This document shows, piece after piece, positions 688 to 24,315 of a stretch of 24,315 bases of DNA. Source of the stretch: a virus; IMG/VR virus record IMGVR_UViG_3300006128_000055, positions 1-24,315 of that record, one strand, 5' to 3'. Made by a program: the position numbers and the translations under genes. The notes below the pieces were generated by a model that saw nothing but the letters and a program-made list of their open reading frames with translations, did not search any database and was not told the DNA's origin. The first letter of the stretch is position 1; every line of letters starts with the position of its first letter.

Positions 688-2181
688 ATGTCAAATATTC
701 GTCCTTCACAGTCATACATCGATGAGTCCCGCGCAAAGCTTCTCGTAGAGAAGTGGGCACCCGTTCTTGATTACACATCAGCGAACGTCCGCGACATCGA
801 AGATGATCACACACGTCTTAACACAGCTATCCTCCTTGAAAACCAGGAGAAGTGGTGTTTAGAAGCCAACCAATCTGGTGGCGCTGGTGTATTCGGTAAC
901 GGTTCTGGCAATGGCGCTGGCTACTATGGTAATCAGTTCCCTTCACAGAACGACTCCGCATACGCACAGGGTGATGCTCGTCTTCCGAAGATCCTCATCC
1001 CGATGATTAGACGTACATTCCCTGAGCTTATCACTAACGAAATCGTTGGTGTTCAGCCAATGAGTGGTCCAGTAGGACTCGCATTTGCTCTCCGTTATAA
1101 GTACGAAGGCGCAGCTCTCGGTGCAACAACAGCTGCTGGTATCGACGGTTCATTAGGATCCGGTACAACAGCAAGCACATGGGCAGCTCAGTCAAGCGGC
1201 GCTGAATTAGGTTATCAATACCTCGACTCACGATTCACAGGTGCTTCATCTGCGGCATTATCTGGTGCAACCGGATACTTCCCAATGCAGCCTCAGGATC
1301 AGGGTGTCGCTCAGCTCCTCGCTAACTTCGAATTAACAAGTCAGATTCCTCAGATCGTTGTCTCCTTCGAGAAGACAGCAGTTGAAGCCGGCACACGCCG
1401 TCTCGCAGCTCGCTGGTCAGTCGAACTCGAGCAGGATCTTAAGAACATGAACGGTATCGATATCGACACCGAGCTCACAAACGCAATGTCTTATGAGCTT
1501 CAGGCCGAAATCGACCGCGAAATGATCGTCCGTATGATTCAGACAGCTCTCAATGCCGGCTACGGCACTGGGTTCTCAGTCTGGTCACCTGCTTCTGCAG
1601 ACGGCCGCTGGCTCGTTGAGCGTAATCGTGACTTCTATCAGAGACTCATCGTAGAGGCAAATCGTATTGCCGTTCGTAACCGCCGTGGTGCTGCTAACTT
1701 CATCGTTGCAACTCCTCGCGTTTGCGCAATCCTTGAAATGCTCCCTGAATTCCAGTGGGTACCTGTTCAAGGTAACGTCAACACACAGCCTGTCGGTGTT
1801 GCAAAGGTCGGTTCACTCGCTGGTCGCTTTAATGTTTATCGTGATACACGTACTGAGGCTCAGTACGAGGCAAACGCCGGAGGTAACTTCGGTGGCAAGG
1901 GTGGTTTCCCATCCGGCACAACTCGTAATGCACGTCTTGACTACGCGCTTCTCGGTTACAAGGGTCCTGAATTCTATGATACCGGTATTATCTACTGCCC
2001 TTACATCCCTGTAATGGTACAGAGAACAATCGGTCCTAACGACTTCAGTCCTCGTGTTGGCTTACTCACCCGTTATGGTGTTGTTGATAATATCTTCGGT
2101 GCAAACCTTTATTATCACGTCATTATTCTCCAGGGTCTCAGTACAGCCTTCACACCTGCTACACAAGCGGTGTACTTCTAA
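688..2181 (+). CDS. 23: Major capsid protein, T4 gp23-like
   Basis: The 497-residue protein matches T4 gp23 by eye along its length. Shared segments include LLENQEKW near the N-terminus, the GVQPMSGPVG segment after the conserved RRTFPELI, and the RRLAARWSVELEQDLK block. DREM, NFIVATPRV, YKGPEFYDTGIIYCPY and the C-terminal LTRYGV also match. The N-terminal region should be cut off by the head protease: T4 cleaves after (L/I)xE, and both LLE (in LLENQE) and CLE (before ANQSGG) are candidates. A Gly/Asn-rich stretch follows (about residues 62-90). Codon usage is richer in C-ending codons than its neighbours, as expected for a highly expressed gene. A weak late-promoter-like GAAATA lies 9 nt before the ATG; no good Shine-Dalgarno is seen. 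A terminator follows at 2202. Confidence 0.96.
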   Translation: MSNIRPSQSYIDESRAKLLVEKWAPVLDYTSANVRDIEDDHTRLNTAILLENQEKWCLEANQSGGAGVFGNGSGNGAGYYGNQFPSQNDSAYAQGDARLPKILIPMIRRTFPELITNEIVGVQPMSGPVGLAFALRYKYEGAALGATTAAGIDGSLGSGTTASTWAAQSSGAELGYQYLDSRFTGASSAALSGATGYFPMQPQDQGVAQLLANFELTSQIPQIVVSFEKTAVEAGTRRLAARWSVELEQDLKNMNGIDIDTELTNAMSYELQAEIDREMIVRMIQTALNAGYGTGFSVWSPASADGRWLVERNRDFYQRLIVEANRIAVRNRRGAANFIVATPRVCAILEMLPEFQWVPVQGNVNTQPVGVAKVGSLAGRFNVYRDTRTEAQYEANAGGNFGGKGGFPSGTTRNARLDYALLGYKGPEFYDTGIIYCPYIPVMVQRTIGPNDFSPRVGLLTRYGVVDNIFGANLYYHVIILQGLSTAFTPATQAVYF

Positions 2182-2262: not shown

Positions 2263-2270
2263 AATAAATA
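2263..2270 (+). promoter_or_regulatory. T4-late-type promoter box
   Basis: AATAAATA, close to the T4 late consensus TATAAATA, ends 7 nt before the ATG at 2278. The predicted transcript would start at or next to the start codon. Confidence 0.55.
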
Positions 2271-2277
2271 TTCATAT

Positions 2278-2796
2278 ATGGCTTACGAAACCCTTCTTAC
2301 TCTTCCAGTAAACCTCGCAGCATTAGCCTACTCTTCAGTAGGACCTACAAGCGGGTATGATCTTGTATTTTTTACAGATGCAGCATGTACACTCGGTAAT
2401 CTAACCGGTGACTTAGCAGTTATTGTTAACCTTAATACAGGTGTAAATTCAGACGGAGCAACATTATCTGCTGCCACTGGTTCAATTACGCTTACATTAA
2501 GTTCAGCTTCAAGAATTCCAACACCTGTTGTAATTAGCAACGGTTACTTAGCAGCATCAACATACAACGGTACAGTCAGTGGTGCAACAGCAACAATTAA
2601 GTTCACAGAGCCAAACTTCTTAAACACATCAATCAGTGTTTCAGCAAATAAGACAACAACAGTTATGGACCCAACAAAGACATCAGTAATTGATAATCTT
2701 ATCTGGGCTTCAATTAACCCAGCAGAGTCAGGTCTCGGTATCGCCGGTCTTCGTACAGCTTACGGCAATGCAAGACTTGCAGCTCAGCAAGGCTGA
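2278..2796 (+). CDS. Possible head accessory/decoration protein (unknown family)
   Basis: This 172-residue protein is rich in Ala, Thr, Ser and Val and looks all-beta, with no cysteine cluster or membrane segment. I chose the ATG at 2278 over the in-frame ATG at 2206, because the upstream one lies inside the terminator hairpin of the capsid gene while 2278 has a late promoter box at the usual distance. It sits between the capsid terminator and a strong terminator at 2821, so it is its own late unit. Position and composition suggest a capsid surface or other virion protein; that is inference, and no family was recognised. Confidence 0.85.
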   Translation: MAYETLLTLPVNLAALAYSSVGPTSGYDLVFFTDAACTLGNLTGDLAVIVNLNTGVNSDGATLSAATGSITLTLSSASRIPTPVVISNGYLAASTYNGTVSGATATIKFTEPNFLNTSISVSANKTTTVMDPTKTSVIDNLIWASINPAESGLGIAGLRTAYGNARLAAQQG

Positions 2797-10996: not shown

Positions 10997-11270
10997 TATT
11001 GGCCGAAATATTAAAACTATAAGATAAAACACCAGTTTTTAAAGAATATACTTTTCCAGATGTTCTACCTGCTTTATCTTTTACAACGATAGTTAATTTA
11101 TCATATGTTACAACAGGTCCGTTAACTATTTCTACAGCTCCTAAATTAATACTATATGCACGAACACCTGATTCTGCATCAAAAACCGAAATTCTATTCT
11201 TACTATCAACTACTGCAGAATATACTTTCTGCGTAATCTTCTGTTTACCTGGTTGAGACATTTTTCCCAT
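10992..11270 (-). CDS. Small beta-rich protein of unknown function
   Basis: The 92-residue protein is rich in Val, Ser and Lys with alternating hydrophobic residues, suggesting beta strands; there are no cysteines and no membrane segment. The ATG at 11270 has a late box 5 nt upstream. The ATG at 11261, preceded by GGGA, would give MSQPG and is a fair alternative. It is divergent from the tail fibre gene, so it may be a tail-fibre or baseplate partner; that is only positional. Confidence 0.7.
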   Translation of the reverse strand: MGKMSQPGKQKITQKVYSAVVDSKNRISVFDAESGVRAYSINLGAVEIVNGPVVTYDKLTIVVKDKAGRTSGKVYSLKTGVLSYSFNISANK

Positions 11271-11275
11271 ATAAG

Positions 11276-11283
11276 TATTTATT
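11276..11283 (-). promoter_or_regulatory. T4-late-type promoter box
   Basis: AATAAATA ends 5 nt before the ATG at 11270. It is back to back with the plus-strand late box at 11298. Confidence 0.55.
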
Positions 11284-13364: not shown

Positions 13365-13634
13365 TTAGCTACTTAATTTTGTTAATTTTTTAATTACGGT
13401 ATGAAGATCCATAAGCGCACTTTGATAAGCCTGCTTATTACCTCTTGCACAGATATCAGCACACTTTCTGAGCATCTCTACAGCATCCTTTGCTTCATTA
13501 CTTTGCTCTCTTGATTCTGGATATTCTTGTGGACGAAACGGATGTACGGCATCACCTTTATTGACTATAAGTGGTCCGATGTTGCTCACAGTACTCTCAT
13601 ATAAGGAATACATTGCTTTATTCTCATCCTTCAT
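13365..13634 (-). CDS. Small late protein with possible capsid-targeting N-terminus
   Basis: The 89-residue, mostly helical protein starts MKDENKAMYSLYES; SLYE fits (L/I)xE head-protease sites. It has two cysteines (KCADIC) and no other recognised motif. A strong TATAAATA box ends 6 nt before the ATG, giving a predicted leaderless late mRNA. Function is unknown; packaging in the head is a hypothesis shared with the neighbours at 14442, 15200 and 12648. Confidence 0.75.
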   Translation of the reverse strand: MKDENKAMYSLYESTVSNIGPLIVNKGDAVHPFRPQEYPESREQSNEAKDAVEMLRKCADICARGNKQAYQSALMDLHTVIKKLTKLSS

Positions 13635-13640
13635 CTAAAT

Positions 13641-13648
13641 TATTTATA
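13641..13648 (-). promoter_or_regulatory. T4 late promoter, perfect consensus
   Basis: TATAAATA, the exact T4 late consensus, ends 6 nt before the ATG at 13634. It shares an 18-nt divergent gap with the plus-strand gene at 13653. Confidence 0.7.
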
Positions 13649-14987: not shown

Positions 14988-15195
14988 CTATAAGCTTACT
15001 GAGAATATTATTAACGTATTGTTCAAATGTACTAACAGACTCGTTAGCTTTTGTTTCCTCACCTTCATTGGCATGAATGGCAGCGATTTGTTTCATTGCT
15101 GCTTTCTTAGAAGGATGGGTACCAAAGACATGACTACTACCGGTCTTCTTCATGACTTTATATTTGCTACCGGATTTTACGATTTTATAAGGCAT
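14983..15195 (-). CDS. Small basic late protein
   Basis: The 70-residue protein starts MPYKIVKSGSKYKV and has a GTHPSKKAAMKQIAAIHAN segment, a layout common in short phage proteins (sometimes fused to portal or head proteins) whose function is unknown. Its N-terminal half is very basic and its C-terminus acidic. TAAATA lies 5 nt before the ATG. Confidence 0.78.
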   Translation of the reverse strand: MPYKIVKSGSKYKVMKKTGSSHVFGTHPSKKAAMKQIAAIHANEGEETKANESVSTFEQYVNNILSKLID

Positions 15196-15199
15196 AGAA

Positions 15200-15577
15200 T
15201 TATTTAATGTCCTTATTATTACGAATAAAGGAAGTTACAATATCAAAAAGCTTAATACCGTGATCGGAATTCTTTGTTTCCTTACCACCGGTTAATTCAA
15301 TGAGTTTGTTCTTAAGATCTACTTGATCAAATCCGGCTTGTTTCTTAGCTATCTCCTTAAGCTCTTTAAAAGCCTGTTGAAAGTGTCCGAGGGCTTTCTG
15401 TAGCTGGGCATCAGGAAGCCCTGGGGAAGGAGGGGCATCATTATAAACAGGACCAGCCGGGGCACTAGTTATGGGCTCGGGATTATTACTCTTACTACCA
15501 AAAGGATCTTCCATCCCCTCTCTATACAATACCTGATTATAGGCATCGGACAGGGAAATAGGCTTCTTTCTCTTCAT
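15200..15577 (-). CDS. Late protein with possible capsid-targeting N-terminus
   Basis: The 125-residue protein opens MKRKKPISLSDAYNQVLYRE, with a Pro/Ala/Ser-rich linker (about 28-58) and a C-terminal helical part. The N-terminus up to LYRE resembles other small late proteins here. I placed the start at 15577 rather than the open frame's 15622, because CCTAAATA lies 7 nt upstream of 15577 and the extension reads through the promoter. Function unknown. Confidence 0.75.
   Translation of the reverse strand: MKRKKPISLSDAYNQVLYREGMEDPFGSKSNNPEPITSAPAGPVYNDAPPSPGLPDAQLQKALGHFQQAFKELKEIAKKQAGFDQVDLKNKLIELTGGKETKNSDHGIKLFDIVTSFIRNNKDIK
15201..15208 (-). promoter_or_regulatory. T4-late-type promoter box
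   Basis: ATTAAATA ends 5 nt before the ATG at 15195 and lies inside the 3' end of the upstream gene. Confidence 0.5.
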
Positions 15578-17119: not shown

Positions 17120-17437
17120 TTACCTCCAGCTTCCACTATTGGCTAGGAACTCATCTTCCATTCCACTACTGAAGGGTAAGGTACGTACACGCTTAGTAGT
17201 CTTCTTTGTAGCTTCTTCTAGCTCTTTAACAGCACTATCATAGCTATCATTAATAACCTCTTGTAAGGTTCTAGTACCTTTATAGTAACCTTTAACCTCC
17301 CAATCTAGTATTGCCTGAATGGTACCTAATGTATAGGCATAAGCATGATCCTTATTGCCTTTAGCCCTTTGGACCTCAAGAAGCTTATTGGTGAGCTCGG
17401 TGACTGTTCTGTTCGTTACTTCTTTCTTATTCTTCAT
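17120..17437 (-). CDS. Early protein, 105 residues, paralogue of the partial gene at the window end
   Basis: The protein begins MKNKKEVTNRTVTEL and looks helical, with Thr/Lys-rich stretches. Its middle, LDWEVKGYYKGTRTLQEVIN, is closely matched by LDFEVKGYAKGIRTLQEQIN in the partial gene at 24190-24315, so the two are duplicates. I chose the start at 17437 because of the fused promoter and the MKNK start shared by the block. No function recognised. Confidence 0.8.
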   Translation of the reverse strand: MKNKKEVTNRTVTELTNKLLEVQRAKGNKDHAYAYTLGTIQAILDWEVKGYYKGTRTLQEVINDSYDSAVKELEEATKKTTKRVRTLPFSSGMEDEFLANSGSWR

Positions 17438-17472
17438 AATCTTATTGTGGCTGCTATTGTAGGGACGTACAA
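17438..17472 (-). promoter_or_regulatory. Early promoter fused to start codon
   Basis: TTGTAC, 17 bp, CACAAT, AAGATT, ATG. Weaker than the other copies in both hexamers. Confidence 0.6.
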
Positions 17473-17475
17473 GCT

Positions 17476-17727
17476 TCAATTGCCGATATGGTAGACAAGC
17501 TCTACCTTGACATGCTCTTCATCCATCCACTCTATACCACCAACGGTAGTATAACCACCGAAGTAATTACCCGTATTCGGATAGCGTTTACTTAGTGCTG
17601 TCCTCATTTTATGAGGCTCGTAATCACCCTCGAAAGGGACCTTATAGCAGGTCAGATCATAATAGGGGCTCTGATCGCCCTTGATGACCTCTCTCTTACC
17701 CCACTTCAATGTGCCGTTATTTTTCAT
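17476..17727 (-). CDS. Early protein, 83 residues, unknown
   Basis: Begins MKNNGTLKWGKREV; contains many Tyr and Gly residues (NYFGGYTTVGGIEW) and probably beta strands. Start at 17727 set by the fused promoter; the longer reading runs through it. No family recognised. Confidence 0.78.
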   Translation of the reverse strand: MKNNGTLKWGKREVIKGDQSPYYDLTCYKVPFEGDYEPHKMRTALSKRYPNTGNYFGGYTTVGGIEWMDEEHVKVELVYHIGN

Positions 17728-17762
17728 ACCTTCAGTATAAGGTCTTTGTTCGGAACAGTCAA
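17728..17762 (-). promoter_or_regulatory. Early promoter fused to start codon
   Basis: TTGACT, 17 bp, TATACT, GAAGGT, ATG; spacer begins GTTCC. Confidence 0.8.
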
Positions 17763-17771
17763 TGCTAAAGG

Positions 17772-17972
17772 CTACCACCTGACCCTGTAGCGATTGTATT
17801 GCTCAACCGAGCAACCCTCTTCGTATTCCCCAAGCATCATGTTCTCACATTGCTGCTCACGAAGGTTCTCCAGCTCGTGATTGATCCTGGTGAGCTCCCC
17901 GAGGCCCTTTGCCTTGTTCGCTTGAAGCTCGAGTTCGTTGATTCGGTATTGGATTGTGTTCTTATTTTCCAT
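17772..17972 (-). CDS. Early coiled-coil protein, 66 residues
   Basis: Begins MENKNTIQYRINELELQ and is Glu/Leu/Asn-rich with heptad-like spacing over residues 7-45, suggesting a coiled coil. No family recognised. It starts directly at its promoter. Confidence 0.78.
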   Translation of the reverse strand: MENKNTIQYRINELELQANKAKGLGELTRINHELENLREQQCENMMLGEYEEGCSVEQYNRYRVRW

Positions 17973-18007
17973 ACTATCAGTATAATGGAATTTGGTCGAA
18001 CGGTCAA
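17973..18007 (-). promoter_or_regulatory. Early promoter fused to start codon
   Basis: TTGACC, 17 bp, TATACT, GATAGT, ATG; one of the best copies. Confidence 0.82.
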
Positions 18008-18279
18008 GCTCCTTCTACGACATTCCCATGCATGTCTCGGACGACGTTCCGCTCCTCCAGAGCCTCTTCCAAGACAGTCATCTCACACTCAAAGACATCA
18101 ATCAGATGACTCCATTGATCGTCTCGGTATTTGAAGCCGGCCATATCGAAGGCGTCTTTGATGTATGAAAGACTGCCTGTACGGAGGGTCTTTCGCCATT
18201 CAGAAGCGAAGAACTGATCGTTGTCAATCCAGAGCTCCAGCTCCTGGGGGCAGTTATTGGTAAGGTCGTTGTTGTACAT
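18004..18279 (-). CDS. Early protein, 91 residues, unknown
   Basis: An acidic protein (MYNNDLTNNCPQELELWIDN...) with Trp/Asp/Glu-rich helices. It is the third gene of a three-gene operon and, unlike the promoter-fused genes, has a classical Shine-Dalgarno (GAAGGAG, 7 nt before ATG). The upstream stop is 1 nt from its start (TAATATG). Its end overlaps the -35 box of the next early promoter. Confidence 0.8.
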   Translation of the reverse strand: MYNNDLTNNCPQELELWIDNDQFFASEWRKTLRTGSLSYIKDAFDMAGFKYRDDQWSHLIDVFECEMTVLEEALEERNVVRDMHGNVVEGA

Positions 18280-18280
18280 A

Positions 18281-18451
18281 TTAAGCTCCTTCGTCGATAT
18301 CGATTACTACAGCCTGACAATCTTCGTCGATTGAGACGTCTCGGATCTGATATTGATATCCATTGACATCGACAATCGCAATCTCCATGTCCGCTAGTTG
18401 ATTCTTCTGGTTCTGTTCTTCTAGGTATTGGATGAGTTCTTTGATCTTCAT
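18281..18451 (-). CDS. Early small protein, 56 residues, similar in plan to the 18598 protein
   Basis: MKIKELIQYLEEQ begins an N-terminal helix, followed by strands with alternating Val/Ile (MEIAIVDVNGYQYQIRDV). The protein at 18598-18789 has the same plan (MTYKQLIKSLMEI, then TITVYDPDRDDYCAV). They may be diverged paralogues. Start at 18451 lies 1 nt after the upstream stop. Confidence 0.75.
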   Translation of the reverse strand: MKIKELIQYLEEQNQKNQLADMEIAIVDVNGYQYQIRDVSIDEDCQAVVIDIDEGA

Positions 18452-18452
18452 A

Positions 18453-18560
18453 TTAGCGAGGCATGAGGGCGAAGGCCACAATGTTGATTACGACGACGGC
18501 TGAAGCAGCAGCCAGGAGCCAGAGGTTGATCGGATTGTTTACGTTGTTCTTATTTTTCAT
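18453..18560 (-). CDS. Tiny early membrane protein (35 residues)
   Basis: MKNKNNVNNPINLWLLAAAS begins a 35-residue protein with one transmembrane helix (about residues 11-32) rich in Ala, Val and Ile. It has the block's MKNKN start and a strong fused promoter, and its stop is joined to the next gene by TAATATG, so it is very likely real despite its size. Function unknown; small early membrane proteins in phages may alter host envelope behaviour. Confidence 0.75.
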   Translation of the reverse strand: MKNKNNVNNPINLWLLAAASAVVVINIVAFALMPR

Positions 18561-18595
18561 ACTATCAGTATAAAGGAACTTCGGACGAACCTCAA
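18561..18595 (-). promoter_or_regulatory. Early promoter fused to start codon
   Basis: TTGAGG, 17 bp, TATACT, GATAGT, ATG. Drives the 18560-18004 operon. Confidence 0.8.
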
Positions 18596-18597
18596 GC

Positions 18598-18789
18598 CTA
18601 GATTCCGTACGAGCGAAGGACTAGGAAGGTATGGCCCTCATCCAGAACATCGTTCTCCGCCTCAACAGCCACGGCTACATGATTGACGGCGCAATAGTCA
18701 TCCCGATCGGGATCATAAACGGTGATGGTATCGTCGAGGCGCTCGGCTGGAATCTCCATGAGCGATTTGATGAGTTGTTTGTATGTCAT
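18598..18789 (-). CDS. Early small acidic protein, 63 residues
   Basis: MTYKQLIKSLMEIPAERLDD begins a helix-then-strands protein, highly acidic, ending FLVLRSYGI. Start at 18789 lies 4 nt after the upstream stop, so it is the second gene of an operon; no Shine-Dalgarno is seen. It resembles the protein at 18281 in layout. No family named. Confidence 0.75.
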   Translation of the reverse strand: MTYKQLIKSLMEIPAERLDDTITVYDPDRDDYCAVNHVAVAVEAENDVLDEGHTFLVLRSYGI

Positions 18790-18793
18790 GGTA

Positions 18794-19021
18794 TTAGCGG
18801 GAGTTACGAACCAAGTCCATTCCATGTCTCACTACATCATCAAAGCTTCCGTAGCTGTTGTAGAGATCGACAATTTGACAGTTAACGTCAGAGGAGCCAA
18901 TTTCAGGCACCCCCCACTCCTTCAACTCTAGCTTGGCTGTGTTACGAACCATGCACTGCATTCCAGTCTCGAGAGCCTTAAACTCTCCCATTACTTCTTC
19001 GAACGTTTTTCTATTTTTCAT
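18794..19021 (-). CDS. Early protein, 75 residues, unknown
   Basis: Begins MKNRKTFEEVMGEFKALETG, N-terminal helical, with two cysteines (MQCMV, VNCQI) and an acidic middle. Directly fused to its promoter and followed by a coupled second gene. No family recognised. Confidence 0.78.
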   Translation of the reverse strand: MKNRKTFEEVMGEFKALETGMQCMVRNTAKLELKEWGVPEIGSSDVNCQIVDLYNSYGSFDDVVRHGMDLVRNSR

Positions 19022-19056
19022 ACTCTTATTATGGCTTCTGATTGTGGAACACTCAA
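19022..19056 (-). promoter_or_regulatory. Early promoter fused to start codon
   Basis: TTGAGT, 17 bp, CATAAT, AAGAGT, ATG; spacer begins GTTCC. Confidence 0.78.
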
Positions 19057-19058
19057 GC

Positions 19059-19328
19059 TTATTCCTTATTCCAGAGGTACGCGACCTCAGTTAGATCCTG
19101 AATGAAGCAGCTAAATTCACCATTCATGCATGCGTTTTCTACAGCAATAGCAGCCTCTTCCATCGTCGGATCCTCAGTATAGATAACATCGACTGCTTCC
19201 TTATATCCAGGCTTTTCCATAAAACCTTTCAGCTCTTTCAGAGCCTTATAAACATTACCTGTGAGGTCCTCGTACTTGGAGGCGATGGCGATTACTTCTT
19301 CGGTGGTTAGGGTGTTCTTATTTTTCAT
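19059..19328 (-). CDS. Early acidic helical protein, 89 residues
   Basis: Begins MKNKNTLTTEEVIAIASKYE; predicted mostly helical and acidic, with two cysteines (ACMNGEFSC). I set the start at 19328 from the promoter; the open frame extends to 19433 but passes through the promoter and the upstream gene. No family recognised. Confidence 0.78.
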   Translation of the reverse strand: MKNKNTLTTEEVIAIASKYEDLTGNVYKALKELKGFMEKPGYKEAVDVIYTEDPTMEEAAIAVENACMNGEFSCFIQDLTEVAYLWNKE

Positions 19329-19363
19329 ACTATTAGTATAAAGGAAATCAGATGGAACCTCCA
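19329..19363 (-). promoter_or_regulatory. Early promoter fused to start codon
   Basis: TGGAGG, 17 bp, TATACT, AATAGT, ATG. The -35 overlaps the end of the gene at 19348. Confidence 0.68.
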
Positions 19364-19506
19364 GCCTCAAGGGTCGAAATGACTTCCAACCAACTCTCAC
19401 GCCATGACTTGAACTCGTCGCCAGCCATGGCAAATTGATTGACCATTTCGCGGATGTTAGCGATGAGCCTCTGTGTCTTCTTGCTTACCTTGTTCTTATT
19501 TTTCAT
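19348..19506 (-). CDS. Early small protein, 52 residues
   Basis: MKNKNKVSKKTQRLIANIRE begins a helical 52-residue protein containing DEFKSWRESW. Promoter-fused and with the block's N-terminal sequence, so real although small. Its last codons carry the next gene's -35 box. Function unknown. Confidence 0.72.
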   Translation of the reverse strand: MKNKNKVSKKTQRLIANIREMVNQFAMAGDEFKSWRESWLEVISTLEAGGSI

Positions 19507-19541
19507 ACATTCATTATGAATGCAGATGACGGAAAGGTCAA
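19507..19541 (-). promoter_or_regulatory. Early promoter fused to start codon
   Basis: TTGACC, 17 bp, CATAAT, GAATGT, ATG. Lies just after the tRNA-Lys gene. Confidence 0.78.
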
Positions 19542-19552
19542 GCCGAAAAAAG

Positions 19553-19624
19553 TGGGACCGCTGGGACTCGAACCCAGAACCAATACCTTAAAAGGGTACT
19601 GCTCTACCATTGAGCTACAATCCC
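19553..19624 (-). tRNA. tRNA-Lys (UUU)
   Basis: Seven-bp acceptor stem with two G-U pairs, GCTC/GAGC D-stem, anticodon stem GTACC/GGTAT with loop CTTTTAA (anticodon TTT), short variable loop and a CTGGG-TTCGAGT-CCCAG T-arm. CCA is not encoded. Confidence 0.93.
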
Positions 19625-19632
19625 GAAAGTGT

Positions 19633-19726
19633 TGGTAGTGGGTGTGGGAATCGAACCCACGCTCGGCCCTAATCTGGGGCGCCACGGTTATAAATCGTGC
19701 GATGCTTCCAATTACATTAACCCACC
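19633..19726 (-). tRNA. Class II tRNA with apparent anticodon UAU (unusual)
   Basis: A 94-nt gene including CCA, with acceptor GGTGGGT/ACCCACT (G1-U72), a three- to four-bp D-stem, and a GTGGG-TTCGATT-CCCAC T-arm. The 22-nt variable arm (GCCC/GGGC stem) makes it class II, as in Leu, Ser or Tyr tRNAs. The anticodon arm centres as CACGA-TTTATAA-CCGTG, giving anticodon TAT (isoleucine AUA) with an A-C mismatch at the base of the loop. True Ile tRNAs have short variable loops, so identity is uncertain. Confidence 0.75.
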
Positions 19727-19729
19727 AAC

Positions 19730-19805
19730 TGGTACCTGTGGTCGGATTCGAACCGACACTGGAGCGATTTTAAGTCGCTTGTCTCTGCCGTTGGACTACA
19801 CAGGC
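19730..19805 (-). tRNA. tRNA with anticodon UAA (Leu) but a short variable loop
   Basis: Acceptor GCCTGTG/CACAGGT (G1-U72), anticodon arm AGCGA-CTTAAAA-TCGCT, variable loop CCAGT (5 nt), T-arm GTCGG-TTCGAAT-CCGAC, discriminator A, encoded CCA. The anticodon reads UUA (Leu), yet Leu tRNAs in bacteria normally have a long variable arm. Confidence 0.85.
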
Positions 19806-19814
19806 GTAAAATTT

Positions 19815-19859
19815 GAAAGAGTCCACCAGGCGCCGGCTTTCCACCTGATAGACTCTTTC
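19815..19859. other. Hairpin upstream of the tRNA cluster
   Basis: GAAAGAGTC (19815) pairs with GACTCTTTC (19851), 9 bp. A 3x3 internal loop and a CAGG/CCTG stem lie above it. On the minus strand it is followed by AAATTTT and then the first tRNA, so it could be a terminator of the upstream gene or an RNase processing site. Confidence 0.5.
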
Positions 19860-19893
19860 GGGGTTCTTTTTGTTCACCGGGCTTTAAGGGCTC

Positions 19894-19916
19894 CTCCGAG
19901 CTTGCGCTCTTCGGAG
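19894..19916. other. Small hairpin after the 19924 gene
   Basis: CTCCGA (19894) pairs with TCGGAG (19911) just past the stop codon of the minus-strand gene; GAGC/GCTC offers an alternative inner pairing. No U-run follows, so termination is uncertain. Confidence 0.4.
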
Positions 19917-19923
19917 TGATTCT

Positions 19924-20289
19924 TTAAGACTTCTTGGTCTTACCGTTGAAGCGGAGAATGGTCTCGGCGGCGAGCTCAGCGATAGGAGACTCAAACGACG
20001 TTCCGAGAATTCCCTGGATCTCAGTTACGGTCTTACCGCTACGGAGGAGCTTGGCGACATCGCGGGAGACGTAGTGCTTGGTAATATCCTCAACCGAGCA
20101 GGCACGCTGCTCTGCCTTCTTCGAGAGGTACGCGGCGTTGGTATAACGTCCGATTCCGGTGACCTGACAGACGAGCTTCGGCGTAACGACCTTAACGGTC
20201 TTAGGCTGCGCACTTTGGGTGGTCTTGCGCTTAACCTGGCTCTTAGGAGCCACTGTGTTGGTTTCGACTGTGGTAGTCATATTGTTCAT
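19924..20289 (-). CDS. Early basic protein, 121 residues, unknown
   Basis: The N-terminal 35 residues are a Thr/Lys/Gln-rich low-complexity tail; the rest is a compact domain, with LVCQVTGIGRYTNAAYLSKK (about residues 38-57) and RDVAKLLRSGKTVTEI. The C...TG..R.TN pattern looks like a family that once held a metal site, but only one of its cysteines is paired loosely with another (C68). High charge suggests nucleic-acid binding. Codons are more GC-rich than its neighbours. Starts at its promoter (MNNM). Confidence 0.78.
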   Translation of the reverse strand: MNNMTTTVETNTVAPKSQVKRKTTQSAQPKTVKVVTPKLVCQVTGIGRYTNAAYLSKKAEQRACSVEDITKHYVSRDVAKLLRSGKTVTEIQGILGTSFESPIAELAAETILRFNGKTKKS

Positions 20290-20323
20290 AGATGATTATG
20301 GCTGCTAATATTCGGACCGGCAA
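20290..20323 (-). promoter_or_regulatory. Early promoter fused to start codon
   Basis: TTGCCG, 17 bp, CATAAT, CATCT (5 nt), ATG. Confidence 0.7.
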
Positions 20324-20326
20324 TAA

Positions 20327-20509
20327 TTATTTTGAGGAATTCGGGGAAAGAAATACGTATGCTGAATTGATGATCAGACCAATGCAGATGATGTAGAAGT
20401 AGAAGAAAGGAACGGGATTATGATCAACCCAGCCTGATAGTCCGACGTGGATACAGATGGCGACATTGATGAGGTTGGCGATGATAGCTGTTGTTTCTAG
20501 CTTAGACAT
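20327..20509 (-). CDS. Small two-pass membrane protein, 60 residues
   Basis: MSKLETTAIIANLINVAICI begins a protein with two hydrophobic segments (about residues 7-25 and 34-54). It is the last gene of a three-gene operon, starting 13 nt after the upstream stop. A start at 20545 would add 12 residues and overlap the upstream gene by 23 nt. No Shine-Dalgarno is clear. Function unknown. Confidence 0.65.
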   Translation of the reverse strand: MSKLETTAIIANLINVAICIHVGLSGWVDHNPVPFFYFYIICIGLIINSAYVFLSPNSSK

Positions 20510-20522
20510 GGTAGTGTTGGGG

Positions 20523-20690
20523 TTAATGTTTGCAGGAATACTCATGCAAACGGTTTTGGTTACGGAGATCCTCCAGCCAGGAGGAGTGGGTAAAGTCATG
20601 AATGTGCATCCCAAGGAGGGTTGGCTTCTTCTGCATGGTCAGTCCCATGAGGTTGAGAATAGCTTCGAGTGGGTTTTCTAGGAACTTCAT
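20523..20690 (-). CDS. Early small protein, 55 residues
   Basis: MKFLENPLEAILNLMGLTMQ begins a protein rich in Leu, Met and His (GMHIHDFTHSSW). Start at 20690 lies 4 nt after the upstream stop, giving translational coupling. The open frame to 20816 overlaps the upstream gene and is less likely. Function unknown. Confidence 0.65.
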   Translation of the reverse strand: MKFLENPLEAILNLMGLTMQKKPTLLGMHIHDFTHSSWLEDLRNQNRLHEYSCKH

Positions 20691-20694
20691 AGTA

Positions 20695-20925
20695 TTAGTC
20701 GATAGCAAGCTTGTGATCGTCGAGGAGCTGATGGATGTAATCTCCTTCCTTCTCGATACAATAATGATTCCAGAGATAGAGGTAAGGATTAGTGAATCCA
20801 GAGCTAACAAATCCAATGTTCAGAATCTGACTCCGAACCTTAGGAGGAAGCGAGAGAATGCTGTCGATGAAAGCATCGTAGTAGTTTCCGTCGACTTGTT
20901 CTTCGTTGGTGTTCTTATTTTTCAT
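20695..20925 (-). CDS. Early protein, 76 residues, unknown
   Basis: Begins MKNKNTNEEQVDGNYYDAFI; mixed helix and aromatic-rich segment (NPYLYLWNHYC), acidic overall. It is the first gene of a three-gene operon and starts at its promoter. No family recognised. Confidence 0.78.
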   Translation of the reverse strand: MKNKNTNEEQVDGNYYDAFIDSILSLPPKVRSQILNIGFVSSGFTNPYLYLWNHYCIEKEGDYIHQLLDDHKLAID

Positions 20926-20960
20926 ACTCTAAGTATAATGGCTAATGGTGGAATGGTCAA
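20926..20960 (-). promoter_or_regulatory. Early promoter fused to start codon
   Basis: TTGACC, 17 bp, TATACT, TAGAGT, ATG; drives 20925-20327. Confidence 0.8.
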
Positions 20961-20962
20961 GC

Positions 20963-21109
20963 CTATTCAGTGCGATAGGGGATTTCAGCACCCTTCAGGA
21001 CCTCGAGAAGATCATGAAGGACCTCCTTGTTTGCATTGACAACCTTCTTGAGGCTATCAATCTCCTGGTGGAGGGCTTCGATCTCTGCTTTGATATCGTT
21101 ATTTGTCAT
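20963..21109 (-). CDS. Early small coiled-coil protein, 48 residues
   Basis: MTNNDIKAEIEALHQEIDSL begins a protein with a clear leucine/isoleucine heptad pattern over about residues 6-40, so likely an oligomer-forming coiled coil. It departs from the MKNKN start (MTNN) yet has the same promoter. Function unknown. Confidence 0.75.
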   Translation of the reverse strand: MTNNDIKAEIEALHQEIDSLKKVVNANKEVLHDLLEVLKGAEIPYRTE

Positions 21110-21144
21110 ACAATGATTATTGCTTCTGGGTTTGGATCTGTCAA
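21110..21144 (-). promoter_or_regulatory. Early promoter fused to start codon
   Basis: TTGACA, 17 bp, AATAAT, CATTGT, ATG. Nothing else recognisable was found in the gene-free 21145-21229. Confidence 0.75.
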
Positions 21145-21229
21145 GAAGAAAAGCGATCTAGGTGTTCAATGAGGCATAAGTGCCCGAGTAGGTTCTCCCT
21201 AGCAATCTATTCCTAAATCGCGTTAAATG

Positions 21230-21448
21230 TTAGTAAGTATCTTCAGCTTCTGCAAGCTTTGATTTAAAGTAATCTGGAAAGAAGCCCTCTTCATAGAGGT
21301 AGTCGCCAAGCTTCTCCATGTCCCTTTCACCGAATGGTTTCTCATCAGCAGCTATAACCATCATCTCGTTCTGCGGGGTTACCCAAGTACACCACGGGCG
21401 TCCAAAGGCTTCAATGTACATCATTCTGTCTAGGTCGGCGTGTGTCAT
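21230..21448 (-). CDS. Early protein, 72 residues, unknown
   Basis: An acidic protein (MTHADLDRMMYIEAFGRPWC...) with many Met, Asp and Glu residues. It is the second gene of an operon and, unlike promoter-fused genes, has a good Shine-Dalgarno (GGAGG, 7 nt before ATG). No family recognised. Confidence 0.78.
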   Translation of the reverse strand: MTHADLDRMMYIEAFGRPWCTWVTPQNEMMVIAADEKPFGERDMEKLGDYLYEEGFFPDYFKSKLAEAEDTY

Positions 21449-21451
21449 AAA

Positions 21452-21676
21452 TTATCCTCCAATCATCTCCGCGTAGAGTTCAGGCTCAGGCTTGAGCTCC
21501 CAGTAACGGACCAGCTGGTTCTTAAAGAACTCATTGAAATCATCTTCACCCATCCAGGTGACAAGCTCGTGGAGGAAGTGCTCTTCAAACCAGATCGGAC
21601 TGGTGGTCTCCTTAATGAATTGAAGCTTCTCGTGGCGGTTGGTGGTACGATACCACTCTTGTGTTTTATTTTCCAT
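21452..21676 (-). CDS. Early protein, 74 residues, unknown
   Basis: Begins MENKTQEWYRTTNRHEKLQF; rich in Glu, Phe and Trp, probably helical. Start at 21676 is set by the promoter; the frame upstream is open but crosses it. Its final codons contain the Shine-Dalgarno of the next gene. Confidence 0.78.
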   Translation of the reverse strand: MENKTQEWYRTTNRHEKLQFIKETTSPIWFEEHFLHELVTWMGEDDFNEFFKNQLVRYWELKPEPELYAEMIGG

Positions 21677-21711
21677 ACGTTCAGTATAAAGGCTTTTGTC
21701 GGAACGGTCAA
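21677..21711 (-). promoter_or_regulatory. Early promoter fused to start codon
   Basis: TTGACC, 17 bp, TATACT, GAACGT, ATG; spacer begins GTTCC. Confidence 0.82.
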
Positions 21712-21936
21712 TCAGGAAACCCACTCAGTATTACTTTCCCAGACACCAACGATGTCTTCGGCAAGGGTAGGATCACCGATCTCACAGCCGTACTCATCAC
21801 GAATATAGTCTGAAACAAGCTTATCGTTCTGATCATACTCCAATGTGTAGATATAACGATCGCCGTCGTAGGTAACAGCCCATCGTTCGATCTTAACGAA
21901 GCTCTTCTCGAGCAATTCAACAGTATTGTTCTTCAT
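21712..21936 (-). CDS. Early acidic protein, 74 residues, unknown
   Basis: Begins MKNNTVELLEKSFVKIERWA; predicted beta-rich in the middle (VTYDGDRYIYTLEYDQ) and very acidic. It overlaps the upstream gene by ATGA (4 nt), so it is translated by coupling; no promoter of its own is seen although it keeps an MKNN start. Confidence 0.76.
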   Translation of the reverse strand: MKNNTVELLEKSFVKIERWAVTYDGDRYIYTLEYDQNDKLVSDYIRDEYGCEIGDPTLAEDIVGVWESNTEWVS

Positions 21937-22064
21937 GCGTATTGGAGGTTGTATTTTGCTTTGCGTGAGTAGGCTTTCTTATTCTTAAAAGCCTTCTGTT
22001 TGGGAGCGAAAGGCTGCCGCACCTTCATCTCTTTGATTTCGATTATCCATTTCTCATTTTTCAT
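21933..22064 (-). CDS. Early very basic small protein, 43 residues
   Basis: MKNEKWIIEIKEMKVRQPFA begins a protein whose second half is Lys/Arg/Tyr-rich (KNKKAYSRKAKYN), typical of nucleic-acid-contacting phage peptides. It is promoter-fused and overlaps the next start by 4 nt, which strongly supports it. Function unknown. Confidence 0.72.
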   Translation of the reverse strand: MKNEKWIIEIKEMKVRQPFAPKQKAFKNKKAYSRKAKYNLQYA

Positions 22065-22099
22065 ACATTCATTATGAATGCATCAGACGGAACACTCAA
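22065..22099 (-). promoter_or_regulatory. Early promoter fused to start codon
   Basis: TTGAGT, 17 bp, CATAAT, GAATGT, ATG; spacer begins GTTCC. Confidence 0.78.
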
Positions 22100-22292
22100 G
22101 CCGAAAATCGTCCAAACAGCCTTCAATCATCTGGACGGCCTCCTTCTCTGTAATTCCTTCCCACCAAACATCATCAATACAAATGATATCTGGTAGATCG
22201 TTTAAGCCGAGTCCGAACTCTTTATGACACTTGAGGTTTAGTGCTCGCCGGAACTCCGACCTTGATACTGTGGGTTGATTAAGCAGCGACAT
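22083..22292 (-). CDS. Early protein, 69 residues, unknown
   Basis: Begins MSLLNQPTVSRSEFRRALNL; a helical protein with VSRSEFRRALN and an acidic WWEGITEKEAVQMI segment, a layout seen in other short phage proteins. It starts inside the end of the upstream gene (14-nt overlap), implying coupling. Family not named with confidence. Confidence 0.72.
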   Translation of the reverse strand: MSLLNQPTVSRSEFRRALNLKCHKEFGLGLNDLPDIICIDDVWWEGITEKEAVQMIEGCLDDFRLECSV

Positions 22293-22731
22293 ACTTCAAA
22301 GTCTTACACGTTGCGTTACAATTCTGGACGTAAGGGCAATCATCGCACTTCCGTCCGCTATTGAGAAAGATATCCGGCCGGAGACAGGCTCCAGATGCAC
22401 TCACTGATAATTGGAGATCAGGGGCGTCCTTAAGGAAGACATTCCGAGCCGGTGAGAAGACCATCTTAGGCATCTCGTACTTCTCAACCTTTACGTCCTT
22501 CTTCTTCTTGCGAACGGAGACCTTCTTTTCCTTCTTAGGCTTTGAAGCACTCACACATGACCGGCACTTGAACTCGTCAAGAAGGCTCCAGAGAGTACCG
22601 AACTTATTGATACGATTCTCAAGGTTAGATCCGAACATCGTAACGTCGGTCTCGCATTGGTTACACTGGATCTTCTTATTGATAAGATGACCGGTTTTAA
22701 GGAAGTGTTCTTGCTGTTCTTTATTTTTCAT
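22279..22731 (-). CDS. Early protein with two cysteine clusters, 150 residues
   Basis: Begins MKNKEQQEHFLKTGH. An N-terminal C23-x2-C26 ... C56-x2-C59 set looks like a zinc ribbon. A strongly basic linker follows (about 64-80, KPKKEKKVSVRKKKK). The C-terminus has C116, C129, C132, C138 and C142 (CxxCxxxxxC inside), a spacing that would suit zinc or an iron-sulfur cluster. Likely binds nucleic acid or RNA polymerase; function not recognised. Promoter-fused start. Confidence 0.82.
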   Translation of the reverse strand: MKNKEQQEHFLKTGHLINKKIQCNQCETDVTMFGSNLENRINKFGTLWSLLDEFKCRSCVSASKPKKEKKVSVRKKKKDVKVEKYEMPKMVFSPARNVFLKDAPDLQLSVSASGACLRPDIFLNSGRKCDDCPYVQNCNATCKTLKYVAA

Positions 22732-22766
22732 ACGTTCATTATGGCTGCTTCTTCTGGAACTGTCAA
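22732..22766 (-). promoter_or_regulatory. Early promoter fused to start codon
   Basis: TTGACA, 17 bp, CATAAT, GAACGT, ATG; a full consensus -35. Spacer begins GTTCC. Confidence 0.83.
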
Positions 22767-22858
22767 GCTATTTGAAATTGAATTTGCCCTCCGAATCTAC
22801 GTGTGGTGGTATTGGATGCGCAAACAAACGCGTTTCTCCAAGGGCTCCCGTGTTTCTC

Positions 22859-23074
22859 TTATGAATGATCCGTTTGATTCAGAAGCATCTCGTCAGCTGC
22901 TACTGACTCACTAGCGTTTTTAAGGTCAGAATAGTTCTCCATTACAAAGAGATATTCATCCTTTGTGAGTCCGGAGGCTAGTCTAGCCTGGGAGCTAAAC
23001 ATATTGTATACTCCGGATCTACGAATGATTTCGTAGGACTTAAAGTGATTGATTTGACGTTTAGTAAAGCTCAT
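22859..23074 (-). CDS. Early protein, 71 residues, unknown
   Basis: Begins MSFTKRQINHFKSYEIIRRS; basic N-terminal helices then an acidic tail, with SGLTKDEYLFVMENYSDLK in the middle. Starts 2 nt after the upstream stop (TAATCATG), so it is translationally coupled. No family recognised. Confidence 0.76.
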   Translation of the reverse strand: MSFTKRQINHFKSYEIIRRSGVYNMFSSQARLASGLTKDEYLFVMENYSDLKNASESVAADEMLLNQTDHS

Positions 23075-23076
23075 GA

Positions 23077-23331
23077 TTAGGCAGCGGTTAGGGGGTTCTT
23101 CTTGTTAAATGTCTCGGCTCGGTCTTGCATTCCGACCAGATCACCGACAATATTCTCAAGCTTAGTAATCTTCTGTCCGATGAAAGGATCATCAGAACGA
23201 AGCACTTTATGAAGAGACTTAACTACATCCTCAATCTCTTCTAACGTATAAAAAATGTGCATAGACTTATCGTCTTCACACATCTGGTTAATCTCCTGGG
23301 CGCGAACGCGGTTGTATAGGTTTGTATTCAT
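23077..23331 (-). CDS. Early helical protein, 84 residues
   Basis: Begins MNTNLYNRVRAQEINQ and is predicted helical with an EEIEDVVKSLHKVL segment. The promoter-fused ATG seen in other genes is here ATC (23346-23344), so translation must begin at the ATG 15 nt further on. It is preceded by the same AAAAATAAGAAC that elsewhere codes for KNKN. Function unknown. Confidence 0.76.
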   Translation of the reverse strand: MNTNLYNRVRAQEINQMCEDDKSMHIFYTLEEIEDVVKSLHKVLRSDDPFIGQKITKLENIVGDLVGMQDRAETFNKKNPLTAA

Positions 23332-23346
23332 GTTCTTATTTTTGAT

Positions 23347-23381
23347 ACTATCAGTATAAGGGAATTTGATTGGAAGTTCAA
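23347..23381 (-). promoter_or_regulatory. Early promoter with a lost start codon (ATC)
   Basis: TTGAAC, 17 bp, TATACT, GATAGT, then ATC instead of ATG. Predicts a 15-nt leader for the gene at 23331. Confidence 0.78.
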
Positions 23382-23435
23382 GCCTAGAGCCCGGAACCAT
23401 CGAAGTCTTCGTCCATGTTATTTGTTTGTTAAAGG

Positions 23436-23511
23436 TGGTGCGCCCGGAGGGATTTGAACCCCCAACCAATCAGTTATGAGCCGACTGCTCTGACCATTGA
23501 GCTACAAGCGC
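23436..23511 (-). tRNA. tRNA with anticodon CAU (Met or lysidine-Ile)
   Basis: Acceptor GCGCTTG/CGGGCGC, GCTC/GAGC D-stem, anticodon arm GTCGG-CTCATAA-CTGAT, variable TGGTT, T-arm GGGGG-TTCAAAT-CCCTC, A73 and encoded CCA. It lacks the GGG/CCC anticodon-stem pairs and 1-72 mismatch of an initiator, so it is elongator Met or Ile2. Confidence 0.93.
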
Positions 23512-23518
23512 ATTGTTG

Positions 23519-23728
23519 TTAAAGCTCCTCGTATAGTGGAGGTAAAAGTTTACGGAGTTGGAGATCGAGTTCACGTGCAGTCTTCAGATCGATCACTTGA
23601 ATATAGTTGCAGTTATATCCGTGAAACGTAATCTCTACTACGTCCTTTAGAGGCTCGTAGTTATGACGTCCTTTGCGAACGCTGACGTCTTCGTGAATCG
23701 ATCCGCTGATTGGGTCTTTATTTTCCAT
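23519..23728 (-). CDS. Early protein, 69 residues, unknown
   Basis: Begins MENKDPISGSIHEDVSVRKG; contains YEPLKDVVEITFHGYNCNYI, suggesting beta strands, then a Leu-rich helix. Start at 23728 follows the promoter; the longer reading to 23827 crosses it. It lies 7 nt from the tRNA with anticodon CAU. Confidence 0.76.
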   Translation of the reverse strand: MENKDPISGSIHEDVSVRKGRHNYEPLKDVVEITFHGYNCNYIQVIDLKTARELDLQLRKLLPPLYEEL

Positions 23729-23763
23729 ACGTTCATTATGGCTGATTGGGAAGGAAAGGTCAA
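23729..23763 (-). promoter_or_regulatory. Early promoter fused to start codon
   Basis: TTGACC, 17 bp, CATAAT, GAACGT, ATG. Confidence 0.8.
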
Positions 23764-24014
23764 GCCTCAAGCGGGGTTGGGTCCTGCCAGTAAGCTTTGT
23801 TGAATACAACGAGCCAGAAGGCTGCATTCAATACCATTCCATTCATTACGATCTCACCAGTCTCGTCGTCGTTAATCTGGAATTCCATATCATCCTTCTT
23901 GACGATATAACCAGCGTCCTTACCTGCGTCTAGATAGCTCTTCAGAGAACCCTTCTTCATGACCTTCTGGAACCAATCTCCACGCTTGCGCATGAGCTCC
24001 AACGGGGTTTGCAT
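23760..24014 (-). CDS. Early protein, 84 residues, unknown
   Basis: Begins MQTPLELMRKRGDWFQKVMK; basic N-terminus, then DAGYIVKKDDMEFQINDDET and a hydrophobic C-terminal part (NAAFWLVVFNKAYW). Start at 24014 lies 7 nt after the upstream stop; an in-frame ATG at 24041 would overlap it. Its end overlaps the next promoter's -35 box. No family recognised. Confidence 0.74.
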   Translation of the reverse strand: MQTPLELMRKRGDWFQKVMKKGSLKSYLDAGKDAGYIVKKDDMEFQINDDETGEIVMNGMVLNAAFWLVVFNKAYWQDPTPLEA

Positions 24015-24021
24015 TGTGATA

Positions 24022-24174
24022 TTACCAGTTAAAGATTTCATCAGGATCGTTCTTAATTTCGCAGATCTCTTCCTGTTCCTCGTCAGTGAGGTTATCGAAG
24101 TTCTCTTCACACCAATTCATGAACGTCTTGAAGCGTTCGATTTCTTTCGTTATGTTGTATTTCTTATTTTCCAT
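24022..24174 (-). CDS. Early acidic protein, 50 residues
   Basis: MENKKYNITKEIERFKTFMN begins a very acidic helical protein (LTDEEQEEICEI, DPDEIFNW). It is promoter-fused, has the block's MENK start, and is followed closely by a coupled gene, so it is likely real. Strong negative charge recalls DNA-mimic or inhibitor peptides, but no function can be assigned. Confidence 0.74.
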   Translation of the reverse strand: MENKKYNITKEIERFKTFMNWCEENFDNLTDEEQEEICEIKNDPDEIFNW

Positions 24175-24209
24175 ACCAGTATTATGATATCAATCCCTGG
24201 AAGCGGCAA
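24175..24209 (-). promoter_or_regulatory. Early promoter fused to start codon
   Basis: TTGCCG, 17 bp, CATAAT, ACTGGT, ATG. The -35 lies in the last codons of the gene at 24190. Confidence 0.72.
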
Positions 24210-24315
24210 GCTCCAATTCATGCTTAAGTTCCTGCTCGTACCTCTCGTACGCGTCGTTAATCTGTTCCTGGAGGGTTCTGATTCCCTTGGCATATCCCTT
24301 GACTTCGAAGTCAAG
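24190..24315 (-). CDS. C-terminal part of a paralogue of the 17120-17437 protein (partial)
   Basis: The frame is open from the window end to the TGA at 24192-24190, 41 residues. LDFEVKGYAKGIRTLQEQIN matches LDWEVKGYYKGTRTLQEVIN in the 105-residue protein at 17120, so this is a second copy; its C-terminal tail differs. Function unknown. Confidence 0.8.
   Translation of the reverse strand, partial: LDFEVKGYAKGIRTLQEQINDAYERYEQELKHELELAASRD

Follow-up and report, generated by a model that had tools for sequence, protein, structure and literature searches.

The DNA analysed here is a 24.3-kb virus fragment from IMG/VR (record IMGVR_UViG_3300006128_000055; 24,315 nucleotides (nt), referred to as the window), which contains a block of left-facing genes in which about 15 closely similar promoter cassettes of the sigma-70 type fill most of the intergenic space and end at the start codon. 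From the arrangement of these early promoters, and of late promoters in the same phages, we conclude with a probability of about 0.8 that a large, uncultured clade of T4-like phages expresses most of its genes from promoter-fused mRNAs that are leaderless or nearly so, the transcription start sites being deduced from promoter geometry.

The window encodes a capsid protein, QueF, a gp5-like baseplate protein and a tail fibre, and its capsid protein of the Gp23 family places it among the T4-like phages. It is syntenic with two long contigs, with an end of G003 (193 kb) at about 66-80% nucleotide identity and less closely with G004 (199 kb). Both contigs encode a Gp23-type capsid, a gp20 portal, a T4 replisome and a gp55-like late sigma factor, of which the window itself holds the capsid only. 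The phages belong to the T4-like (gp23) lineage by the capsid, and by the portal, replisome and late sigma factor of the relatives.

Early promoters joined to start codons

An earlier note on this DNA had described fifteen early promoters running directly into ATG codons and had predicted a leaderless mRNA from each of them. All 15 ATGs were found on the minus strand behind the described layout of a -35 hexamer, 17 base pairs (bp) and a -10 hexamer, and the ATG stands exactly 6 nt past the -10 hexamer in 14 cases and 5 nt past it at 20289 (Table 1). A matrix trained on promoter positions -37 to -7 only, with the ATG excluded, was used to scan both strands. In the window, 16 sites scored above 19 bits, every one on the minus strand within 17.4-24.2 kb; first-order Markov shuffles gave about one match above 10 bits, and the top score across 40 shuffles was 18.6. 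A separate consensus scan again gave a spacing of 17 bp. The consensus of the early cassettes is gCTTGAcnnTTCC-N12-(T/C)ATA(C/A)T-N4-GT-ATG(A/G)AAAATAAgAA, so the motif had been described correctly in its layout and understated in its extent: conservation also covers TTCC beside the -35 region and the first 4-5 codons. The TTCC elements adjoining the -35 region might be operators. The product of cassette 1 (17120-17437, minus strand) gave a weak match to PHROG 357 (transcriptional repressor; E 4e-4).

Two sites depart from the common pattern. The 16th cassette, at 23352, had escaped the count of fifteen and carries ATC at +1. Its G003 ortholog has an ATG at this position (MKNKEW), and the next in-frame ATG of the window (MNTNLYN) lies 15 nt further on; the window gene must start either at the ATC or at this ATG five codons later. 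At 20289, the syntenic sequence of G003 has no ATG, and ATGACTACCACAGTCGAA is kept in both the window and G003. Since the second ATG is retained where the first is missing, the gene probably begins at 20280, and its mRNA, with about 8 nt ahead of the ATG, would be short-leadered instead of leaderless. At the other 14 sites, the geometry is best read as giving leaderless mRNAs.

Most orthologs of the window and G003 align from one common ATG, and changes in the gene bodies amount to 0.22, 0.16 and 0.41 at codon positions 1, 2 and 3, respectively. The shared starts and this codon-position pattern indicate that the ATGs are true coding starts. Between the same two sequences, the third positions of codons 2-5 were altered in 4 of 40 cases, compared with 299 of 728 in the gene bodies (P=4e-5). 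Codon 3 was AAT in 90 cases and AAC in one, with an AAT:AAC ratio of 252:222 in gene bodies, a comparison which is indicative only, as the sites are partly related by descent. The bases after the early ATG, with the motif AUGAAAAAUAARAA, are constrained as nucleotides.

Table 1. Coordinates of the promoter cassettes, late-type boxes and other features; positions refer to the window unless a locus is named.
Feature	Position	Strand	Details
Major capsid protein, Gp23 family	688..2181	+	Pfam E 3e-89
Late-type box TAAATA	2265..2280	+	7 nt before ATG 2278 (172 aa, amino acids)
Late-type box TAAATA	11268..11283	-	5 nt before ATG 11270 (92 aa)
Late-type box TATAAATA	13632..13648	-	6 nt before ATG 13634 (89 aa)
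Late-type box TAAATA	15193..15208	-	5 nt before ATG 15195 (70 aa)
Cassette 1	17435..17473	-	Weak promoter (CTTGTACGTCCC / CACAAT), ATG 17437, MKNKKEV..., 105 aa
Cassette 2	17725..17764	-	TTGACT-N17-TATACT-GAAGGT-ATG 17727, MKNNGTL, 83 aa
Cassette 3	17970..18009	-	TTGACC-N17-TATACT-GATAGT-ATG 17972, MENKNT, 66 aa; start shared by G003 ortholog
Cassette 4	18558..18597	-	TTGAGG-N17-TATACT-GATAGT-ATG 18560, MKNKNN, 35 aa
Cassette 5	19019..19058	-	TTGAGT-N17-CATAAT-AAGAGT-ATG 19021, MKNRKT, 75 aa
Cassette 6	19326..19365	-	TGGAGG-N17-TATACT-AATAGT-ATG 19328, MKNKNT, 89 aa
Cassette 7	19504..19543	-	TTGACC-N17-CATAAT-GAATGT-ATG 19506, MKNKNK, 52 aa; follows three-tRNA array
Promoter with two ATGs	20278..20325	-	TTGCCG-N17-CATAAT, then ATG 20289 (5 nt) and ATG 20280 (MTTTVET)
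Cassette 9	20923..20962	-	TTGACC-N17-TATACT-TAGAGT-ATG 20925, MKNKNT, 76 aa
Cassette 10	21107..21146	-	TTGACA-N17-AATAAT-CATTGT-ATG 21109, MTNND, 48 aa
Cassette 11	21674..21713	-	TTGACC-N17-TATACT-GAACGT-ATG 21676, MENKTQ, 74 aa
Cassette 12	22062..22101	-	TTGAGT-N17-CATAAT-GAATGT-ATG 22064, MKNEKW, 43 aa
Cassette 13	22729..22768	-	TTGACA-N17-CATAAT-GAACGT-ATG 22731, MKNKEQ, 150 aa
16th cassette	23332..23383	-	TTGAAC-N17-TATACT-GATAGT-ATC; +1 at 23352
Cassette 14	23726..23765	-	TTGACC-N17-CATAAT-GAACGT-ATG 23728, MENKDP, 69 aa
Cassette 15	24172..24211	-	TTGCCG-N17-CATAAT-ACTGGT-ATG 24174, MENKKY, 50 aa
Candidate non-coding RNA sites	L055 2828-, L056 10128-, L057 8204+, L058 5620+, L079 725+, L093 10020+, L095 about 6753-		

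Recurrence in relatives and late promoters

The clade comprises at least 598 capsid relatives in IMG/VR. A search for near-identity at the DNA level between the window and cultured phages gave no match, and the best cultured matches to the capsid, portal and polymerase, mostly from cyanophages and a Pelagibacter phage, reached 31-34% identity; at such identities a host call from these proteins was dropped.

A scan of IMG/VR with a degenerate pattern of the early cassette returned 15 stretches from 14 contigs. Counted over whole records, the window and ten of these contigs contain 1-19 sites per record, and the reversed control pattern gave 0. In a matrix scan of 17 loci from about 14 related IMG/VR contigs (cut-off >14 bits), the distance from the -10 hexamer to ATG among 178 matches was 6 nt in 130, 7 nt in 8, 9 nt in 4 and 10 nt in 4. 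Position -1 was a pyrimidine at all 130 of the six-nt sites (T in 120). Of the 17 sites in the window that fit the matrix-free pattern TTG-N20-YAYAMT, 13 had an ATG at 6 nt, with an average of 0.25 for other distances; ATG stood at this distance at 12 sites in G003, 21 in G004, 13 in L053 and 16 in L056, and at none of 20 in T4.

Variants of the early cassette were found as well. In L081 (7241-, 6599-, 5057-), related cassettes represent a lineage variant in which the -10 hexamer is followed by CTTATCTGTAATG or CTTATCTGTTATG and the ATG stands 10 nt after it, which would imply fixed leaders of 3-4 nt. Outside the main clade, L082, L083, L088 and L090 (one of them 367 kb) share a single conserved promoter, TTGACA-N17-TATACT-ACTCGT-ATGAAAAATAAAA with the spacer ATAAATACGGGTTGTGA/C, fused to the ATG of a 52-aa protein. 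Against cultured phages the consensus cassette gave weak partial matches only (E 0.1 or worse). The 17 pattern matches in bacterial genome contigs were scattered AT-rich singletons without TTCC; they were judged to be chance and give no clue to the host.

One might argue that a promoter-plus-start cassette was spread by duplication or homologous recombination, in which case spacing and MKNKN would be inherited and the fusion would have no translational meaning. Cassettes of non-orthologous genes indeed cross-match with 80-95% over 35-60 bp, and the promoter of gene 20925 is of the TATACT type in the window and of the CATAAT type in its G003 ortholog, the fusion being kept in both. However, the 6-nt distance is constant though the spacers vary widely among cassettes, several orthologous cassettes have retained their own spacer (e.g., 22064 and G003 191516), and an unrelated late promoter is fused likewise, at its own distance. 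We consider this explanation improbable, and it hardly competes, as a copied fusion still yields a leaderless mRNA. A second alternative, that transcripts run through from upstream and that what looks like a promoter serves as an operator or a processing site, might draw on TTCC, whose conservation goes further than in a normal sigma-70 promoter and would be expected of an activator or operator site. Hexamers exactly 17 bp apart, the initiator base preference and the coupling to ATG are properties of promoters, however, and make this alternative highly improbable.

The late promoters show a comparable arrangement. In T4, about one helical turn separates the late box from the +1 downstream of it (PMC2988020). 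A T4-type late promoter has a TATAAATA-like box with +1 about 10 bp further on and is served by the gp55 sigma factor; the box positions and the gp55 homolog found here would fit such a promoter, with +1 predicted from the box. In G003 and in G004, 36 genes each have a TAAATA that ends 5-6 nt upstream of the start codon, against a background of about 0.3 per offset, and the same placement was found in 0-1 genes each of T4 and four further stretches from cultured T4-like phages. Across 887 kb from 80 capsid relatives, TAAATA occurs at 5 nt in 126 genes and at 6 nt in 58, and eight genes of the window carry a late-type box 5-7 nt before the start. Judged from these distances, late mRNAs, too, seem to have little or no leader. 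That two promoter classes of different geometry both put +1 at or beside the start codon is the strongest argument for leaderless or near-leaderless expression.

Shine-Dalgarno use and the predicted mode of expression

The early cassette genes have no Shine-Dalgarno sequence, as the earlier note had stated, and the same holds throughout G003 and G004 (each about 195 kb), where no signal rose above background; the feature is not special to early genes. With gene starts called by a home-made caller blind to Shine-Dalgarno and promoter information, matches at the Shine-Dalgarno position and at a control position numbered 12 vs 15 for 210 genes of G003 and 5 vs 10 for 220 genes of G004. The cultured phages used for comparison gave 24 vs 0 of 40 (T4) and 20 vs 5 of 40 (BUCT-ZZ01). 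Among the capsid relatives, the closest group showed none above control (24 vs 20 of 356) and more distant groups a weak signal (49 vs 13 of 330). The proposed contrast with downstream operon genes carrying a Shine-Dalgarno sequence (18279, 21448) could not be upheld, both lying within the background rate of such matches, although the GGAGG near 21448 is also present in G003 and may yet be a real Shine-Dalgarno sequence. Since the relatives have no such signal, the contrast fails as a rule. The suggestion that early genes are translated differently from other phage genes was likewise not borne out: the relatives have no Shine-Dalgarno signal above background anywhere, and late genes are fused, too.

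Leaderless genes of bacteria have a published signature, a TANNNT motif about 12 bp ahead of the start (PMC3160421). With a -10 hexamer followed by six bases, +1 would fall on the A of ATG. RNA polymerase would start at this A, the seventh base past the -10 hexamer and part of a YA initiator, and early mRNAs would begin with 5'-AUGAAAAAUAARAA and lack a leader. The host would translate them by recognition of the 5'-terminal AUG, as in the lambda cI mode, and inner genes of operons would rely on translational coupling. The first 12 nt, rich in A, probably hold the 5' end open, or might be a common tag for a regulator. Late genes, read by the gp55-like late sigma factor, would begin at or 1-2 nt from the start codon. 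The early timing is suggested by promoter type and gene character. We propose tentatively, with odds below even, that this widespread clade has largely abandoned leader-dependent translation, with host-type early promoters and phage late promoters both fused to start codons, and that the shared tag allows joint translation, and perhaps joint regulation, of the early mRNAs once the phage has altered the host ribosomes.

No homolog of RegA, gp33, MotA or AsiA was detected in these phages by tblastn and phmmer, and RegA was accordingly rejected as the reader of the common tag. A MotA box was set aside, as GCTTGA stands too far upstream for such a box.

Transcription might instead begin 1-5 nt upstream, giving near-leaderless mRNAs whose translation depends on an unstructured A-rich start region and not on true 5'-terminal AUG recognition. 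Short leaders seem to be tolerated at 20280, in the L081 lineage with its ATG 10 nt past the -10 hexamer, and at late boxes 7-9 nt from the ATG, and A/T-rich upstream regions would fit as well. The sharp peaks at 6 nt (early) and 5 nt (late), together with T at -1, favour A as +1, and we regard this alternative as unlikely, if less so than the two discussed above.

Several observations speak against fully leaderless expression. RNA polymerase may start 1-2 nt to either side, which can give some mRNAs leaders of a few bases, and some relatives set the ATG 7-10 nt past the -10 hexamer. Some of the fused late starts, though a minority, use GTG, a codon that supports leaderless translation only weakly in E. 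coli, and 78-79 genes per relative fall outside the simple start classes used. Moreover, in relatives the early promoter also stands before predicted leadered mRNAs and a candidate non-coding RNA, so that it need not always give a leaderless message.

The leadered mRNAs are predicted at L055 4473+ and 6533+, L056 15945+, L058 4698-, L095 7632+, L089 1446+ and L092 5223-. Their leaders of 30-45 nt would be nearly G-free (CAA)n repeats (AGAAGAGTAGAATAAGTCAAACAACAACAACAA...ATG), all before one protein family (V-IEYL-YFETFGNLP), and such a Shine-Dalgarno-free leader resembles a CAA-repeat translation enhancer. The candidate structured non-coding RNA of about 100 nt (GAGCAGGGnCC...AAAACAGCTCG...GTTAGC) begins at the predicted +1 of the early promoter; in a fold of seven sequences, 6 of 17 pairs were compensated, and no Rfam match was obtained among the five loci searched. 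In L053 (16808+/16842-) and L059 (6563+/6597-), two early-type promoters about 30 bp apart face each other across GGACCCCAAATGCCGGCTGCACC and form a long inverted repeat, and short overlapping transcripts would be expected. Apart from promoters, QueF of the window (2870-3799, minus strand) and homologs of GTP cyclohydrolase, QueD and QueE in G003 and G004 suggest 7-deazaguanine modification of the DNA.

Known systems and implications

The mRNA of lambda cI transcribed from PRM, like those of other single leaderless genes of phages or plasmids, has its -10 box right before the ATG, starts with AUG and has A-rich early codons. The phages described here share these properties, as far as promoter geometry predicts them, but in lambda they concern one gene and here nearly the whole early block and many late genes. 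Lambda is cited as the first leaderless case in PMC3160421. The leaderless genes of Actinobacteria and Deinococcus-Thermus (PMC3160421) likewise have TANNNT about 12 bp before the start and no Shine-Dalgarno sequence, whereas the present genes are viral, combine a strong -35 region with TTCC and carry a nucleotide tag behind the ATG, and late promoters form another fused class beside the early one. T4 (PMC2988020) shares the gp23 capsid, the gp55-like late sigma factor, the TAAATA late box and the replisome, but its late boxes lie mostly 21-29 nt before the starts in the stretch examined and its genes carry Shine-Dalgarno sequences.

The PeSL elements of T4-type phages, which are mobile cassettes of promoter and terminator (references in PMC4503421), are also repeated early-promoter cassettes between small early genes. 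They include a stem-loop terminator, whereas the conserved unit found here extends into the coding sequence instead. An identity with PeSL cassettes was rejected, as no stem-loop terminator was present at the cassettes: the 8 terminator-like sites found vs 5.9 expected were near chance, and no minus-strand cassette had one attached. In the giant phage AR9, leaders measure 26-491 nt. In a literature search that took in few subscription journals, we found no published phage with genome-wide leaderless mRNAs or with fused early and late promoters throughout.

Most bacterial mRNAs have a leader to which the ribosome binds, and leaderless translation tends to be regarded as minor or ancestral in bacteria. 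For gene callers relying on Shine-Dalgarno scores, these genomes are a warning, and they offer a simple rule for calling starts. If leaderless expression is indeed the main mode of these phages, they would be a natural system for studying how 5'-terminal AUGs are selected at scale, and the clade would allow one to ask what a phage gains from dropping Shine-Dalgarno sequences and whether its host lacks them, too.

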